Position numbers and translations under genes: made by a program. The notes beneath the pieces were generated by a model, which saw nothing but the letters and a program-made list of their open reading frames with translations, ran no database searches and had not been told where the DNA came from. From a virus, in the IMG/VR virus record IMGVR_UViG_3300046007_009718, positions 1-27,071 of that record: a stretch of 27,071 nucleotides of DNA; one strand, written 5' to 3'. The first letter of the stretch is position 1. Each line of letters begins with the position of its first letter. Below, piece by piece: positions 1-12,830 of the stretch.

Positions 1-83
<83 letters not shown>

Positions 84-738: not shown

Positions 739-1839
739 ATGAAGACCGAATACGGCGCACAAGCGCCAACATTCACAGCCCTCCCGAACTGGCTCAGGGG
801 ACAAACAACGCCTCTCGAAGGCTGGCTGCTGTGGACCCTGCAGAGCCACTACCCGAACATCTTCCCCAGTTTGAGCCTGCTCGCCAAAGAGGCGTGCATG
901 TCCAGGCGTGCGGTTTGCAACGTGCTTGCGGACATGGAAAGGAAGGGCTGGGTGGTGAGAGAGCGCACCGTCGGCAATCACGGCCGCAAGGTTTCAACTC
1001 GGTATTCACTGACGATTTGGGATGCCCGATGGGGGGTTGTGACTAGTGCAGGAGATGCACTAGTGCATGAGGTGCACCAAGCGACTAGTGCATCAGGTGC
1101 ACTAGGGCTAGTGCATGAGGTGCACGGGGCTAGTGCACCTGATGCACTTAAAGAAGATCAAGAGAAGAAGAACAAGAAGAAGAAAGAAGAAGAACCCCCC
1201 TTACCCCCCGTGACGGGGGAAGCGCTCGATCCCTGGGCAACGGATGGCATGTGCCATGATCGGGACGGCTTCCTGATCCGGCCATGCCCATCGCCCCCTC
1301 CAGCAGCCGCACAGCCCCAGCCGCAACAGCCGGTGCCGCCGTGGGGGCCAGTGCCACAGCCGGAACCCACGCCAGAGCCCGTGCAGCCGGCAGCCAAGAC
1401 CACGCGAACAGCCAAACCCAGGGCAACCCGCTTCAACCCAACCGCTGACGACATCCCGGCGGCCCTCCTGCCGGTGCAGGCGGAAATCCTCGCCTTCTGG
1501 CCCGAAAGCAGCGGCAGGAAAACACAGACCGCCTGGAACCGCCTCATAGGCCAGCTCCAAAAAATTCAGGACGACAGCCAGGGAGGCACTGAAGTCTTGA
1601 GAGATCAACTCGAGGCCGGGGCGGCAGCCGGCTGGAAATCCATCAACCACTCGAAGTGGGAGCTGTTTGGCAAGAAGGCCTCAGCAACTCCAATCAGCGG
1701 GTCAGGCTTCAGCCGCAAGCCCACCACCACAGAAAGAATTCAGGGGGCGCTTGAGATCATTCGGCGCAACGAAGCAGCCAAGGCCGCGCAAGCGGCTGCA
1801 CAACAAAGCGGCTTAATTCTCGCGGAGGCGACCTCATGA
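739..1839 (+). CDS. O-like replication initiator with internal origin
   Basis: A 366-residue protein. The N-terminus has a winged-helix pattern: FPSLSLLAKEACMSRRAV at about residues 42-59, then VLADMERKGWVVRERTV, as in lambda O and other phage replication proteins that bind iterons. Residues about 100-137 are encoded by five 18-bp iterons and are rich in VHEVH and SASGAL repeats. A charged K/E-rich segment (residues about 138-154) and a Pro-rich linker follow, then a C-terminal domain (residues about 230-366) that could contact the helicase or its loader. The layout matches lambda O, where the origin lies inside the initiator gene. The ATG at 739 has no good ribosome binding site. The gene overlaps the next by ATGA. 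The precise family was not checked by search. Confidence 0.65.
   Translation: MKTEYGAQAPTFTALPNWLRGQTTPLEGWLLWTLQSHYPNIFPSLSLLAKEACMSRRAVCNVLADMERKGWVVRERTVGNHGRKVSTRYSLTIWDARWGVVTSAGDALVHEVHQATSASGALGLVHEVHGASAPDALKEDQEKKNKKKKEEEPPLPPVTGEALDPWATDGMCHDRDGFLIRPCPSPPPAAAQPQPQQPVPPWGPVPQPEPTPEPVQPAAKTTRTAKPRATRFNPTADDIPAALLPVQAEILAFWPESSGRKTQTAWNRLIGQLQKIQDDSQGGTEVLRDQLEAGAAAGWKSINHSKWELFGKKASATPISGSGFSRKPTTTERIQGALEIIRRNEAAKAAQAAAQQSGLILAEATS
1043..1147 (+). repeat. Five 18-bp iterons, putative replication origin
   Basis: Iterons start at 1043, 1060, 1085, 1108 and 1130, each 18 bp. The consensus is CTAGTGCATGAGGTGCAC, and all five contain a perfect dyad GTGCA-N5-TGCAC. Start-to-start distances are 17, 25, 23 and 22 bp. 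In lambda, four 18-19 bp dyad iterons sit inside gene O next to an easily melted A/T-rich region. Here a purine-rich tract follows immediately. That the repeats are the origin is inference from this parallel. Confidence 0.7.
1148..1194 (+). other. Purine tract beside iterons, candidate unwinding element
   Basis: Directly after the fifth iteron, the top strand is almost only A and G (AAG/GAA triplets) for about 47 bases. It encodes the K/E run of the initiator. It is the least GC-rich stretch of the gene and lies where the lambda origin has its unwinding region. It might also form a triplex or act as a pause site. Confidence 0.45.
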
Positions 1840-2576
1840 TCAGCGACCTTGACTTCACGGCCTCAATGGGCTTCTTGGCTGAGATGCTCCCGATGCAACG
1901 GGCGCTGACCCCGGAAGCACTGGCCATGGCATGGGAGACCTTGCCACCTGCGGCAAAAAGCAGACTGACCCCAGCATCCCTGGCGTTCGCGGTGAAGCAG
2001 CGCTTGCTGGACCCTCAGCCGCCAAACGACGTGGCCTTGCATATCGGCCTGTTGCGGTACGTGTTCCCCGTTGAGCGCGCAACCAGGCGCGAGCGCGGGG
2101 AGGAGGTGAACGCCGACCTGGTGATCCTTGAGCACGGCCCGCGCCATGACCTTCCCCAGCGGATGTCCCAGCCCGACCGTTTCCACGATTCAGGGCCTGC
2201 AAGGCAGACACCGCCAGCGCCTGCTACGGCAAGGCGGTTGACGGCCAGCGGCTTTTGGCACCCGTCAATGCTGAGCCCGGAAGAGCTTCGCGCTCACGCC
2301 CAGAAAGTCGCGGAGCAGGTGGAGCGGGTGCGGGCCAAGGGTGATCCGGGAACCACCATGACGGCAGCCCAGTCCGCATCAGGCCGCGTCTTGTTCGAGC
2401 GAGCGCTTCAGGGCTTCTGGCCCCTTCATCACGACAACATTGCGGCGCTGTGGGTGCTCCGCAACCGCAAGTTGGCGGATGAGCTGATTCAGATCGCGCT
2501 GGCAGGCAACACACCAGCCCCTCCCCCCGGTGAAGCCGTGGTGGCCCAACTCCTTGGAGGCTCCTCCCGATGGTGA
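1836..2576 (+). CDS. Early protein of unknown function (helicase-loader position)
   Basis: A 246-residue protein whose ATG overlaps the stop of the initiator gene by ATGA, so the two are probably translationally coupled. The first 85 residues are mostly helical and begin MISDLDFTASMGFL. The middle (about 100-150) is Pro/Ala-rich and looks disordered. The C-terminus has more helices (RVLFERALQGFWPLHHDNI). I do not recognise the family. In lambdoid phages this slot holds the helicase loader P, so a replication accessory role is possible, but no Walker motif or other catalytic signature is visible. Confidence 0.6.
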   Translation: MISDLDFTASMGFLAEMLPMQRALTPEALAMAWETLPPAAKSRLTPASLAFAVKQRLLDPQPPNDVALHIGLLRYVFPVERATRRERGEEVNADLVILEHGPRHDLPQRMSQPDRFHDSGPARQTPPAPATARRLTASGFWHPSMLSPEELRAHAQKVAEQVERVRAKGDPGTTMTAAQSASGRVLFERALQGFWPLHHDNIAALWVLRNRKLADELIQIALAGNTPAPPPGEAVVAQLLGGSSRW

Positions 2577-5170: not shown

Positions 5171-5335
5171 ATGGATCCGAAAGCCCAAAAACAAGGAATC
5201 ATCTGCTGGGTATCTACCGTGACCGGCAAGACCGGACGTGGTCAGCCACTGCCTTTTGAAGAGGCCAGGCAAAAGGCCAGCGAAGCCAGCTCGAGGCACC
5301 CGCTGATTGTTCCCACAGTTGAAGAAGTGCAATGA
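5171..5335 (+). CDS. 54-residue small protein
   Basis: ATG at 5171, stop at 5333-5335. The protein begins MDPKAQKQGIICWVST and ends HPLIVPTVEEVQ, and reads like a small folded domain. Its stop overlaps the ATG of the next short ORF (ATGA at 5332). No function is recognised. Confidence 0.5.
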   Translation: MDPKAQKQGIICWVSTVTGKTGRGQPLPFEEARQKASEASSRHPLIVPTVEEVQ

Positions 5336-5409
5336 CAACCCACCCCATACCCCCGGCCCTGTGCCGGTTCGCCAAGGGCCGCATGGTGCGAAAGGGGGTG
5401 ACCCCATGA
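5332..5409 (+). CDS. 25-residue leader-like ORF before the Pol X gene
   Basis: ATG at 5332 overlaps the preceding stop (ATGA), and its own stop overlaps the ATG of the Pol X-like gene (ATGA at 5406). It encodes MTTHPIPPALCRFAKGRM then VRKGVTP. The double overlap suggests translational coupling. It ends with VTP-stop, exactly as the Pol X-like gene does. Confidence 0.4.
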   Translation: MTTHPIPPALCRFAKGRMVRKGVTP

Positions 5410-5431
5410 GCACCGGCGCCCGCATCCCCTT
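5397..5431 (+). repeat. 35-bp direct repeat, left copy, over the Pol X gene start
   Basis: This copy covers the last codons of the 25-residue ORF and the first codons of the Pol X-like gene (VTP-stop and MSTGARIPL in two frames). It matches 5912-5946 at 30 of 35 positions. Confidence 0.7.
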
Positions 5432-5924
5432 GGAGGAGGCACAGCACATCGTTGTTGGTGCAATGCTGCGGCTGGAGCCGCATTGCGAGGTCATCAGCCT
5501 GGCCGGCAGTATCCGCCGCGAACGGCCCACGATCGGTGACGGTGAGATCGTTTGCGTGCCAAAGCCGTACGACGCCTCGCCGCTGTTTCAGTCTGGCATC
5601 GCCACGGTTGTGAACCAGTGGGAAAAGGTCCGGGGCGAGCTGCCCTGCCGCTACACCCAACGGATCTTGCCTGAGGGGATGAAGTTAGACCTTTTCATGG
5701 TCCACCCCGACGGCTACGGTCTTCAGCGGGCGATCCGCACCGGCTCGTCGGAATGGTGCCGCACGGTCTTGGCCCCGGCCTGGGTGCAGGCTGGCTACCG
5801 CTCTGAGGGCGGTCTACTCCGCCGCGCCGATGGAACAGTTGTTCCCGCCAGGACCGAGCCGGAGCTGTTCAGGTTGATCGGCCTGCGCTGGGTGGATCCA
5901 CGGGACCGGGAGGTGACCCCATAA
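5406..5924 (+). CDS. DNA polymerase beta (Pol X)-like nucleotidyltransferase
   Basis: A 172-residue protein from the ATG at 5406, chosen because of the ATGA overlap with the preceding ORF and the G-rich stretch upstream. LAGSIRRERPTIGDGEIVCV (residues about 34-53) matches the nucleotidyltransferase 'GS-x-R-R ... x-G-D-x-[DE]' signature with the metal-binding acidic pair. LDLFMVHPDGYGLQRAIRTG (about 97-116) supplies the third acidic residue and the RTGS motif of phage Pol X relatives. Length is about that of a catalytic domain without the 8-kDa lyase domain, so gap filling or a non-polymerase transferase role are both possible. A relic of a second start lies just after its stop. Confidence 0.7.
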   Translation: MSTGARIPLEEAQHIVVGAMLRLEPHCEVISLAGSIRRERPTIGDGEIVCVPKPYDASPLFQSGIATVVNQWEKVRGELPCRYTQRILPEGMKLDLFMVHPDGYGLQRAIRTGSSEWCRTVLAPAWVQAGYRSEGGLLRRADGTVVPARTEPELFRLIGLRWVDPRDREVTP

Positions 5925-6964: not shown

Positions 6965-7378
6965 ATGACCGCCACACTTTCCGCCCCATCCCTCGCCCTT
7001 GAGGGAGCTGAACTCCTGGCCAAGGTCAAGGAGCTGGGCGACGTCAGCAAATCCGACCTTGTGCGTGCCTGCGGCTACGTCAGCACCAAAAAGGACGGCA
7101 CGGAGCGCCTCAACTTCACCGCCTTCTACGAAGCCCTTCTCGGCGCCAAAGGCCTCGACCTGGGCGGCGGCGGGTCTGAGCCGGGCAAGGCCGGTCGCAA
7201 GCTCAGCTTCAACACGAAGGTGCAGTTCAACGGCAATCTCATGGTGGGCAAGGCCTACACCGCCTTGCTCGACCTCAAGCCTGGCGATGAATTTGAGATC
7301 AAGCTGGGGCGCGGCGGGATCCGCCTGGTGCCGATTGCTGGAGGCGATGCCAGCGAGGATAGTGAAGGCGACGAATGA
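6965..7378 (+). CDS. cyAbrB-type transition-state regulator
   Basis: A 137-residue protein. GAELLAKVKELGDVSKSDLV (about 14-33), ACGYVSTKKDGTERLNFTAF and YEALLGAKGLDLG match the N-terminal half of cyanobacterial AbrB-like (cyAbrB) proteins, and the C-terminal half, KLSFNTKVQFNGNLMVGKAY then LKPGDEFEIKLGRGGIRLV, matches the AbrB-like DNA-binding swapped-hairpin part. In cyanobacteria cyAbrBs control nitrogen, carbon and stress genes. A phage copy may bind host promoters or its own operators. It is followed by a terminator, so it is probably its own transcription unit. This gene is the best evidence for a cyanobacterial host. Confidence 0.85.
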   Translation: MTATLSAPSLALEGAELLAKVKELGDVSKSDLVRACGYVSTKKDGTERLNFTAFYEALLGAKGLDLGGGGSEPGKAGRKLSFNTKVQFNGNLMVGKAYTALLDLKPGDEFEIKLGRGGIRLVPIAGGDASEDSEGDE

Positions 7379-8908: not shown

Positions 8909-9143
8909 TTTTGCTTTTTTGATCATCTGGACAGCATTGTCGTTCACTGCTGCGTTTTTAATTGGTCGAAGACTTGGCCGCACATCCGCTCGCCTCTCCC
9001 CCGGCAAAACGGCTCAAAGCCCTTTGATCAAGAAAGAGGTGGACAGTCTCTTGCGTCTTGCTTCTGCCCTTAAGCGCGACAACGACCGCCTCCAGCGCGA
9101 CAATGCCCGCCTGGAGCAAGAACTGCGGAGAATTGAGCGATGA
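8898..9143 (+). CDS. Small membrane coiled-coil protein
   Basis: An 81-residue protein from the ATG at 8898 (MTTNFAFLIIWTALSFTAAF). Residues 4-23 form one transmembrane helix. After a basic stretch, residues about 45-81 (LLRLASALKRDNDRLQRDNA) form a coiled coil with heptad leucines. The topology resembles i-spanin-like or membrane anchor proteins, but it lies in an early recombination/regulation operon rather than a lysis cassette, so its role is open. It overlaps the sigma gene by ATGA. Confidence 0.6.
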   Translation: MTTNFAFLIIWTALSFTAAFLIGRRLGRTSARLSPGKTAQSPLIKKEVDSLLRLASALKRDNDRLQRDNARLEQELRRIER

Positions 9144-10072
9144 CGCCAGATTCAATCCGCGACTATCTCCGGGACATCGGCAGTGTTCCACTCCTGACAA
9201 GCCGCGAAGAGATCGAGCTGGGACGGCTCGTGCAGCGGCGACAGAGGCTTATCGAGGCCTTTCCAGGCCTTGAAGACAGCACAGACGCCGCAGCCGCTGC
9301 AATGGCCGCAGAAGGCCTCAGCAAGGCAAAGCTGAGAGCAATTCTGCGAAGTGGCAAAAAGGCTAAGGATCGAATGGTGGCCGCCAACATGCGACTGTGC
9401 GTCAATTTGGCAACCAAAAACACCCGTAGGGCAGGGCCATCCCTTGACATGGTTGACCTAGCACAGGAGGGAGCGCTAGGCCTGAATCGAGCGGTTGAGC
9501 TGTTTGATCCCGAAAGGGGTTACAAGTTCTCCACCTTTGCCTATTGGCACGTTAACCAGCGCATTAAGGTGGCAATAGCGGACAAATCGACCGCTATTCG
9601 CATCCCGCGCCACATGAGAGAAAGTATTGCAAAAATCAAAAAAATTCAGGCGAATGCTGCTTCCAATGACTTGCCATTGACAATGGCAGAAGCCGCAAAA
9701 GAAGCTGGCGTCAATTCTGCGCTGGTTGACCTTGCGCTCAGAACACGCACACTGAGTCTGGATGCTTTGTTGCACTGCAGCACAGATACAGAGCTTCAGC
9801 ACATGCTGCCAGCCCCACAAGAAGAGCCCTCCCTGCTTGGGGAGGAGCAGATCAGCCTCATCCGTGCCTGCGTTGACGCATTGCCTGGCGAGCGACCACA
9901 AGTCCTCAGGGCTGCCTATGCGATCACCGGCAATGATGAAGCTGTGGCGGAATGCAGCAATACAGAAATTGCTGCCAGAATGAACTTCGCCCGTTCGCGT
10001 GTATGGGAGCTGCGCGGTGACAGCTTGAAAAAGCTTCGCGTGCAGCTTGAAATCCTTAGGGGTGTCTTATGA
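9140..10072 (+). CDS. RpoD-like group 2 sigma factor
   Basis: A 310-residue protein. Region 1.2: SIRDYLRDIGSVPLLTSREE (5-24). Region 2: MVAANMRLCVNLATKN (79-94), DLAQEGALGLNRAVELFDPE (106-125) and RGYKFSTFAYWHVNQ (126-140), with a His-Val replacing the usual Trp-Ile of 'YAYWWIRQ'. RIPRHMRESIAKIKKIQ (154-170) starts region 3. Region 4 (about 270-300) is poorly conserved. It would direct RNA polymerase, probably to late or phage-specific promoters with altered -10 and -35 preference. The closest resemblance is to cyanobacterial group 2 sigmas. Confidence 0.85.
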   Translation: MTPDSIRDYLRDIGSVPLLTSREEIELGRLVQRRQRLIEAFPGLEDSTDAAAAAMAAEGLSKAKLRAILRSGKKAKDRMVAANMRLCVNLATKNTRRAGPSLDMVDLAQEGALGLNRAVELFDPERGYKFSTFAYWHVNQRIKVAIADKSTAIRIPRHMRESIAKIKKIQANAASNDLPLTMAEAAKEAGVNSALVDLALRTRTLSLDALLHCSTDTELQHMLPAPQEEPSLLGEEQISLIRACVDALPGERPQVLRAAYAITGNDEAVAECSNTEIAARMNFARSRVWELRGDSLKKLRVQLEILRGVL

Positions 10073-11510: not shown

Positions 11511-11525
11511 TCGACGGCTAATTGT

Positions 11526-11566
11526 CCTGTAAATGCGCCGGGGTTTTGCTCCGGCAACCCTGTAAA
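11526..11566. repeat. Hairpin flanked by CCTGTAAA direct repeats
   Basis: GCCGGGG (11537-11543) pairs with CTCCGGC (11549-11555) with one G-T pair. Identical CCTGTAAA copies lie at 11526-11533 and 11559-11566. The element is between the exonuclease stop and the FGE-domain gene. No T-run follows, so it is not a standard terminator; it may be a leader structure. Confidence 0.4.
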
Positions 11567-11593
11567 CAATCGCCCTACACCAAAACCAATCCA

Positions 11594-12673
11594 ATGACAA
11601 GCCTTCAAGATCTAATTGATCAGATCAGTTCAGCCTGGCCCACACCGCTTAACCCCGATGCAATCAAGCAGGAGGAGCGAGCCAGGCTTGCCGCCGCCCT
11701 GGTTGCGGCCGGATACGGAACCCATGCCACGCATACCGGGGCTTACCTCCCTGCCTGGATTCGCGCAGGCTGCCCCGTGCCTTCTCCCACCCAGCCCCTC
11801 AGAGAAGCGCAGTGGGAATATGGGTTAGCAATGGTGCCGATCCCTGGCGGTAGCTTCCTGATGGGGTCGCCGGAGGAGGAGGAAGGGCGTGATTCCGATG
11901 AAGGCCCTCAGCACGAGGTGACCTTAGAGGCCTTTTGGCTTGGGGAGACCCCGATCACTCAGGCTCAGTGGCGGAAGGTGGCCGGCTGGCCGAAGGTGGA
12001 GCGGGATCTGAATCCTGACCCCTCCCACTTCAAAGGCGACGATCGCCCGGTGGAGCAAGTGAACTGGCATGAAGCCATCGAATTCTGCCGCCGCCTCAGT
12101 GCACGCACTGGCAAAAATTACACCCTGCCCAGTGAAGCGCAATGGGAATATGCCTGCCGTGCGGGTACCACAACGCCGTTTCACTTTGGCGACACGATTA
12201 GCACGGAGCTGGCGAACTACTGCGCGGCGTATAAGTATCGGAAGCAAACAACGGATGTGGCCAGCTTTCCGGCAAACCCATGGGGCCTCCATGACATGCA
12301 CGGCAATGTATGGGAATGGTGCCTGGATGGCTGGCACCACGGTTACGAGGGCGCACCGACGGATGGCAGCGCTGAGGGAGCACCGCAGGATGGCAGCGCT
12401 TGGGCGGCGGGAGAGGAGCGCCTGGGAAAGTCCAGCGCGGCGGATCCCGGCTTAGTGGACCCCACGAGTGCCGCTCGGCCTGCCGCGGCGGGGGCCACCC
12501 GGGCTTCCGCGGCAACAACGTCGGTTTCCGCGTCTGCTGCAGCTGATCAGCGCAAAGTCCAGCGCGGCGGATCCCGGCTTAGTGGACCCCACGAGTGCCG
12601 CTCGGCCTGCCGCGGCGGGGGCCACCCGGGCTTCCGCGGCAACAACGTCGGTTTCCGCGTCTGCTGCAGCTGA
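11594..12673 (+). CDS. FGE-sulfatase-domain protein, probable DGR target
   Basis: A 359-residue protein from the ATG at 11594 (MTSLQDLIDQ); the open frame reaches further up but crosses the hairpin at 11537-11555. The formylglycine-generating-enzyme-like (C-type lectin fold) domain shows as MVPIPGGSFLMGSPEEE (about 79-95), VNWHEAIEFCRRLSARTG (about 156), LPSEAQWEYACRAG (about 178) and GNVWEWCLDGW (about 237). Near residue 252 an EGAP-x-DGSA unit is repeated. From about residue 278 the protein enters the first 127-bp unit in the wrong frame, giving a 42-residue Ala/Ser/Thr-rich stretch. It then reads the second unit in frame (RGGSRLSGPHECRSAC ... GFRVCCS). DGR targets commonly end in such a domain, where the variable part acts as a ligand-binding surface. 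It may be displayed or a receptor/adhesin; enzymatic activity is unlikely. Confidence 0.7.
   Translation: MTSLQDLIDQISSAWPTPLNPDAIKQEERARLAAALVAAGYGTHATHTGAYLPAWIRAGCPVPSPTQPLREAQWEYGLAMVPIPGGSFLMGSPEEEEGRDSDEGPQHEVTLEAFWLGETPITQAQWRKVAGWPKVERDLNPDPSHFKGDDRPVEQVNWHEAIEFCRRLSARTGKNYTLPSEAQWEYACRAGTTTPFHFGDTISTELANYCAAYKYRKQTTDVASFPANPWGLHDMHGNVWEWCLDGWHHGYEGAPTDGSAEGAPQDGSAWAAGEERLGKSSAADPGLVDPTSAARPAAAGATRASAATTSVSASAAADQRKVQRGGSRLSGPHECRSACRGGGHPGFRGNNVGFRVCCS
12347..12400 (+). repeat. 27-bp imperfect tandem duplication in the FGE gene
   Basis: Two in-frame 27-bp units (12347-12373 and 12374-12400) differ at 3 positions and encode EGAPTDGSA and EGAPQDGSA. They lie just before the 127-bp repeats, so this stretch has been duplicated at two different scales. 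Confidence 0.75.
12427..12553 (+). repeat. 127-bp unit, copy 1 (variable-region-like, read out of frame)
   Basis: Begins AAAGTCCAGCGCGGCGG and is identical over 127 bp to copy 2. In the reading frame of the FGE gene it is out of phase, because the junction GCGCCTGGGAAAG has one base too few relative to the frame of copy 2. The out-of-phase reading is nevertheless open. Confidence 0.85.
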
Positions 12674-12680
12674 TCAGCGC
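12554..12680 (+). repeat. 127-bp unit, copy 2 (variable-region-like, read in frame)
   Basis: Identical to copy 1. Here the FGE gene is in the correct phase: KVQRGGSRLSGPHECRSA, then FRGNNVGFRVCCS and a TGA (12671-12673) within the unit's 3' end. Confidence 0.85.
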
Positions 12681-12803
12681 AAAGTTCTGCGCGGCGGCTC
12701 TTGGGTCAACCATCCCCGGTTCTGCCGCTCGGCCTACCGCTACAGGGACCTCCCGGACTTCTGCGACTGCCTCGGGGGTTTCCGCGTCTGCTTGACCAGC
12801 AAC
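12681..12803 (+). repeat. Third, diverged variable-region-like unit
   Basis: Aligned with copies 1 and 2, this unit shares its ends (AAAGT, CGCGGCGG, TGCCGCTCGGCCT, GGTTTCCGCGTCTGC) but differs at many internal codons. It encodes KVLRGGSWVNHPRFCRSA, then YRYRDLPDFCDCLGGFRVC, close to the usual FGE-type C-terminus. It lies after the stop of the current FGE reading frame and in a different phase. No stop separates it from the gene at 12831. Confidence 0.75.
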
Positions 12804-12830
12804 CCCGCCCCTGCCGCATCAAAGGAGGCC

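Follow-up and report, generated by a model that had tools for sequence, protein, structure and literature searches.

The closest described system is the O/ori region of phage lambda, with which lambdoid relatives such as P22 are grouped. In lambda, an N-terminal winged-helix-like region of the initiator is followed by four iterons inside the gene, CCCTC-N5-GAGGG dyads spaced 20-24-23, and an A/T-rich tract comes directly after the last of them (PMC7466680). Nearly all purines of this region lie on one strand (PMC5043065, citing Schnos 1988), and the gene for a partner protein, P, is located directly downstream of the initiator gene. Further points of comparison are the RepA_N-type plasmid initiators (pSK41 RepA) and DnaD, which resemble the protein described here in the fold of their winged-helix N domains. 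RepA_N replicons carry iterons inside the initiator gene. The stretch of DNA analyzed here (the window; all 27,071 nucleotides of IMG/VR virus record IMGVR_UViG_3300046007_009718, classed as linear) very probably belongs to a virus of cyanobacteria whose replication start site lies within the gene of the very protein recognizing it. A lambda-type in-gene origin is a known kind of system; this member of it is new. The features of the locus are collected in Table 1.

Table 1. Coordinates of the candidate origin and neighboring features in the window
Feature	Position	Strand	Basis or remarks
Replication initiator gene, 366 aa, contains candidate origin	739..1839	+	Profile matches, homologues
Winged-helix DNA-binding domain, residues ~12-94	772..1020	+	AlphaFold2 model
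Recognition helix, residues 56-69 (RRAVCNVLADMERK)	904..945	+	Model; covaries with iteron half-site
Iteron 1	1043..1060	+	CTAGTGCAGGAGATGCAC
Iteron 2	1060..1077	+	CTAGTGCATGAGGTGCAC
Iteron 3	1085..1102	+	CTAGTGCATCAGGTGCAC
Iteron 4	1108..1125	+	CTAGTGCATGAGGTGCAC, same as iteron 2
Iteron 5	1130..1147	+	CTAGTGCACCTGATGCAC
A-rich, purine-biased tract, candidate DNA unwinding element	1148..1194	+	Purine content, A+T content, and stability
Tract repeat 1	1150..1161	+	AAAGAAGATCAA; at +2 after last iteron in relatives
Tract repeat 2	1164..1175	+	GAAGAAGAACAA; 14 bp on, other codon phase
Helical C-terminal domain, residues ~241-314	1459..1680	+	Confident helices in model; conserved FW motif
Next gene, candidate helicase loader by position only	1836..2576	+	Overlaps initiator stop

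Five perfect GTGCA-N5-TGCAC dyads were identified in gene 739-1839, starting at positions 1046, 1063, 1088, 1111, and 1133, one more than the four iterons of lambda. Each of them follows a CTA, so that the full units, of the form CTAGTGCA-N5-TGCAC, are 18 bp long and make up an array from 1043 to 1147; the coordinates and description of these units in the initial annotation were correct. Units 1 and 2 overlap by one base (position 1060), and the start-to-start spacing of the five iterons is 17-25-23-22. Dinucleotide shuffles of the window gave a mean of 0.04 copies of the dyad and never five, and synonymous recoding of the gene gave a mean of 0.34 copies and a maximum of two (2,000 trials). 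The dyad is absent from the rest of the 27,071-base record. GC skew, which had been proposed as a check, marks no origin in the window. No sigma-70-like promoter was found upstream, so that transcriptional activation of the kind known from lambda is unsupported here. A direct repeat, TGGCACAACTTT (2.3 copies; 346 to 373), is present upstream of the initiator gene and is a possible operator.

The iteron units alternate between two codon phases, which identifies the array as a repeat of DNA and not of protein and points to selection on the DNA. It is true that a linker predicted to be disordered is encoded by the iterons and a Lys/Glu-rich stretch by the tract, as would be seen if the repeats merely provided such segments to the protein and had no function as DNA. 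However, the iterons and the 12-mers of the tract stand in different codon phases, coding does not explain dyad symmetry, and the pattern is lost on synonymous recoding. For the iterons, the codon phase and recoding data rule out a protein-level repeat, and for the locus we consider such an explanation extremely improbable.

The product of gene 739-1839 matches the PHROGs family phrog_270 (replication initiation protein; E value, 2.8e-9) and also the O-like phrogs 391, 8540, 678, and 345. In the AlphaFold2 model, the winged helix consists of helices 25-36, 45-52, and 56-69 and strands 72-78 and 84-91, and residues 100 to ~230 are mostly of low confidence, the first part of this region being encoded by the iterons and the tract. 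The array thus lies inside the initiator gene and 3' of the predicted winged-helix part, as had been proposed, where the protein is predicted to be disordered. The best fold neighbors of the winged helix include the DnaD N domain (2v79; Z score, 9.4), plasmid initiator domains (Z scores, 8.8 to 8.9; the RepA initiator 4pt7, 8.8), and MarR-type regulators; at these Z scores, a shared fold does not establish function. The protein differs from RepA_N-type initiators and DnaD in that neither Pfam family matched it at E values of up to 1. By analogy, the C-terminal domain may have a role in helicase or primosome contact.

The description of the gene as O-like is right for its architecture; membership in the family of lambda O itself is not supported. 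Lambda O matches its own family, phrog_277, with an E value of 1.2e-152, whereas the initiator gave no match to it at E values of up to 1. Phrogs 391, 678, and 345 are common to both proteins; phrogs 678 and 345 match both N-terminally, and phrog_391 matches the two in different parts. Profile-profile comparison with seven lambdoid O proteins aligned only the helix-turn-helix (36 columns; probability, 18.5%; E value, 0.0013), and no lambda O sequence was found in the PDB. Homology to lambda O appears to be weak and limited to the winged helix.

About 150 related loci were obtained from scans of viral contigs and genomes. A tblastn search of a phage collection recovered Prochlorococcus phages MED4-117 and MED4-184, and the genome scan recovered one contig of a cyanobacterial metagenome-assembled genome (MAG; L214). 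These relatives bear out the earlier suggestion of a probable cyanophage, and the cyanobacterial link is drawn also from two other genes of the window, those for an AbrB-like regulator (6965 to 7378; PF14250; E value, 2.5e-24) and a sigma factor (9140 to 10072; regions 1.2 and 2; phrog_351; E value, 7.5e-52). AbrB-like proteins of the PF14250 kind are known mainly from cyanobacteria. A search of the open-access literature yielded no paper that describes iterons belonging to cyanophages themselves.

In-gene dyads were identified in 101 loci (66 distinct), including the cultured phages MED4-117 and MED4-184, and they represent 14 half-sites. The exact 17-25-23-22 spacing recurs at the same place in L134, L135, L136/L005, L137/L006, L143/L007, L214, and L298, and the spacing in L009/L146 is 18-24-23-22. 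Among the relatives with the same spacing, the half-site is GTGCA, GGGCA, or GTGCG, and L298 has five iteron copies with one mismatch in each. Other clades use GTCCG, GTGCC, GTGTC, GTATC, GTTCA, GTACA, and other half-sites, mostly 22 to 23 bp apart, and in some marine relatives, clear dyads number just one or two, or the rule applied finds none. Spacers other than 5 were scored in one scan, in which most of the shorter or longer spacers that won represented the same palindrome in nested or extended form; the spacer was fixed at 5 in the later scans. In virus records of 20 to 76 kb, perfect dyads of the tested half-site are confined to the in-gene cluster, and the 2-Mb MAG contains isolated single copies outside the cluster as well.

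The initiators of MED4-117 and MED4-184 have a homologous winged helix (34 to 37% identity), and their genes contain GTTCA-N5-TGAAC dyads, after which comes an A-rich tract containing ACTAAAACAA repeats. They differ from the window in that the protein is shorter, the downstream gene is different, and two clear dyads lie 45 bp apart with degenerate ones between them. The records of both phages lack an annotated origin, and the GC skew of MED4-184 marks none. In MED4-117 (L132:4004-4772), the initiator ORF stops at 161 amino acids and the remainder is in another frame, and that of MED4-184 reads to 255 amino acids.

The two arms of the dyad change together among the relatives (GTGCA/TGCAC to GGGCA/TGCCC). 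Such paired changes would also be seen if the dyads were mRNA stem-loops that regulate translation or stability, and each dyad could indeed give a 5-bp stem with a 5-base loop. Hairpins, however, need neither a common stem sequence in five copies nor the fixed 17-25-23-22 spacing, nor would they covary with a recognition helix, and we regard a role as RNA structures as very improbable. The iterons could instead be operator or copy-control sites through which the protein regulates its own gene or replication, the true origin being elsewhere. The likeness of the winged helix to MarR-type regulators fits this explanation, and dyads within a gene could serve as a roadblock. Nevertheless, the sites are located 300 bp into the gene rather than at a promoter, the tract directly after the five phased copies is the least stable in the gene, the profile matches are to replication initiators, and no second dyad cluster was seen in the virus records. 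Operator or copy-control sites are therefore an improbable explanation, and the array is better read as part of an origin.

The relation between half-site and recognition helix was analyzed in 25 units (distinct half-site or less than 80% domain identity), with the distance in the rest of the domain removed. The windows best correlated with half-site distance were five overlapping ones at the start of the recognition helix (window 55-61: partial r, 0.29; permutation P, 0.003). Among single residues, the association was strongest between R61 and a C at the innermost position of the half-site (six of six versus 1 of 19; family-wise permutation P, 0.035, a value that ignores phylogeny). Where closely similar domains have different targets, the positions at which they differ include some in the helix: (i) two that are 90.5% identical have T57 with GTTCA versus S57 with GTGTA; (ii) two that are 87% identical have SRDKVIK with GTCGT versus SRSSVIR with GTGTC; and (iii) two that are 86% identical have SRRKVIK with GTGCA versus SRSTVIR with GTGTC. 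The 14 half-sites require 19 changes (minimum possible, 13) on a tree from which the helix columns were left out. To judge by the relatives, initiator and DNA target seem to have changed in concert more than a dozen times. Of the 3 independent pairs on supported branches, 2.9 were concordant for R61 and the final C, and none ran in the opposite direction; the tree-aware sign test was not significant, and with only three such pairs it cannot reach significance. The covariation supports, but does not prove, the idea that the gene product binds these sites.

Immediately 3' of iteron 5, the 50-mer at 1148 to 1197 is 84% purine, in agreement with the purine tract first described at this place, and 66% A+T (39% in the whole gene). 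The least stable 50-mer of gene 739-1839 starts at 1146, and only 0.4% of the 50-mers of the record are less stable than that of the tract. The initial annotation had considered a polypurine melting region in place of an A/T-rich one to be unusual with respect to lambda. The tract is both purine rich and A+T rich, so the distinction is one of wording, and the lambda tract, measured alongside, is 70% purine and 72% A+T. Since the purines of lambda are likewise on one strand (PMC5043065), the tract is not unusual, and the contrast with lambda was rejected. In the relatives, the 50 bases 3' of the last iteron are 56 to 84% purine and 58 to 86% A+T; low stability and A-richness are kept, while the purine content varies.

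In 12 of 14 close relatives, a 12-mer close to AAAGAAGATCAA occurs at +2 and again at +16, and the 14-bp distance places the two copies in different codon phases. The tract of L135 has three copies in all three codon phases, that of the marine clade has ACTAAAACAA in two codon phases, and that of lambda has ACAAAAGA at +2 and +17. The tract has more order than a simple run of purines and contains candidate 12-mer repeats within A-rich sequence, which we treat as a lead. Plasmid Rep proteins are reported to bind the A+T-rich region in single-stranded form and in a sequence-specific manner (PMC4081077, PMC5043065). The sequence CCCCCCTTACCCCCC at 1195 to 1209, directly 3' of the purine tract, encodes Pro-Pro-Leu-Pro-Pro and gives two G6 runs on the opposite strand; it is intact or nearly so in L134, L136, L137, L140, L142, L145, and L214, and L298 has it with TTG.

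As in lambda, a possible partner gene lies directly downstream of the initiator gene, although here it is not recognizably lambda P: gene 1836-2576 gave no match to the P-like phrog_109 at E values of up to 1, no PDB fold match, and no Pfam match, and its only PHROGs match is a weak one to phrog_2514 (E value, 0.056). It is kept beside the initiator gene in close relatives, and its position makes it a candidate helicase loader. Elsewhere in the record, the protein encoded at 5307 to 5924 has a match to the DNA polymerase beta thumb (PF14791; E value, 7.9e-7), and the gene at 11522 to 12807 encodes an FGE-sulfatase domain (PF03781; E value, 4.2e-49). The latter gene ends in three tandem 127-bp copies (starting at 12427, 12554, and 12681), the first two identical and the third 66% identical; they resemble what duplication of the variable region in the target of a diversity-generating retroelement would give, yet the mismatches are not limited to A, nor was a reverse transcriptase noted. 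The contig starts with a nearly pure G run (1 to 83) that is probably a sequencing or assembly artifact, and the first ORFs in it are unreliable.

Taken together, the locus is most probably a lambda-type replication origin inside the gene of its own initiator and bound by the product of that gene. This reading is based on an array far above chance expectation, set in two codon phases, with a spacing that is conserved despite differing half-sites and with dyads confined to the cluster, and on the initiator profiles, the winged helix, the covariation of half-site and helix, and a low-stability tract like that of lambda. The lambda-style in-gene origin of the initial annotation is well supported by the conserved spacing, the covariation, and the confinement of the dyads to the gene. 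By analogy with lambda (PMC7466680, PMC5043065), origin firing would begin with binding of the winged-helix domain to each of the five iterons as a dimer, one recognition helix per GTGCA half-site, a step to which the covariation lends indirect support. The bound array would fold into a nucleoprotein complex like the O-some of lambda, strain from which would open the adjoining A-rich tract, and the C-terminal domain, perhaps together with the product of gene 1836-2576, would then recruit the replicative helicase of the host to the strand so opened.

A wider proposal, to which we give somewhat less than an even chance, is that these initiators form a large protein family, present in cyanophages and other aquatic phages, in which the iterons have been retargeted at least 13 times by substitutions at a few helix positions, 57 and 61 foremost, while the dyad and the array geometry were kept; these positions would then constitute a natural recognition code. 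In the same proposal, the unwinding tract would be a short array of 14- to 15-bp repeats read as a single strand by the initiator or a partner. The 13-mers of plasmid RK2 are the model for such single-strand reading.

These results place lambda-type in-gene origins in cyanobacterial phages, including cultured Prochlorococcus phages without an annotated origin, and make the array of gene 739-1839 a candidate origin that is open to direct test. The phased repeats of the tract make it possible to test concretely whether lambda-type origins involve sequence-specific recognition of a single strand. The 101 relatives with their 14 half-sites are a natural experiment in which an initiator and its site array change specificity together, and the same experiment bears on whether a change of specificity separates replicons that meet in one cell.
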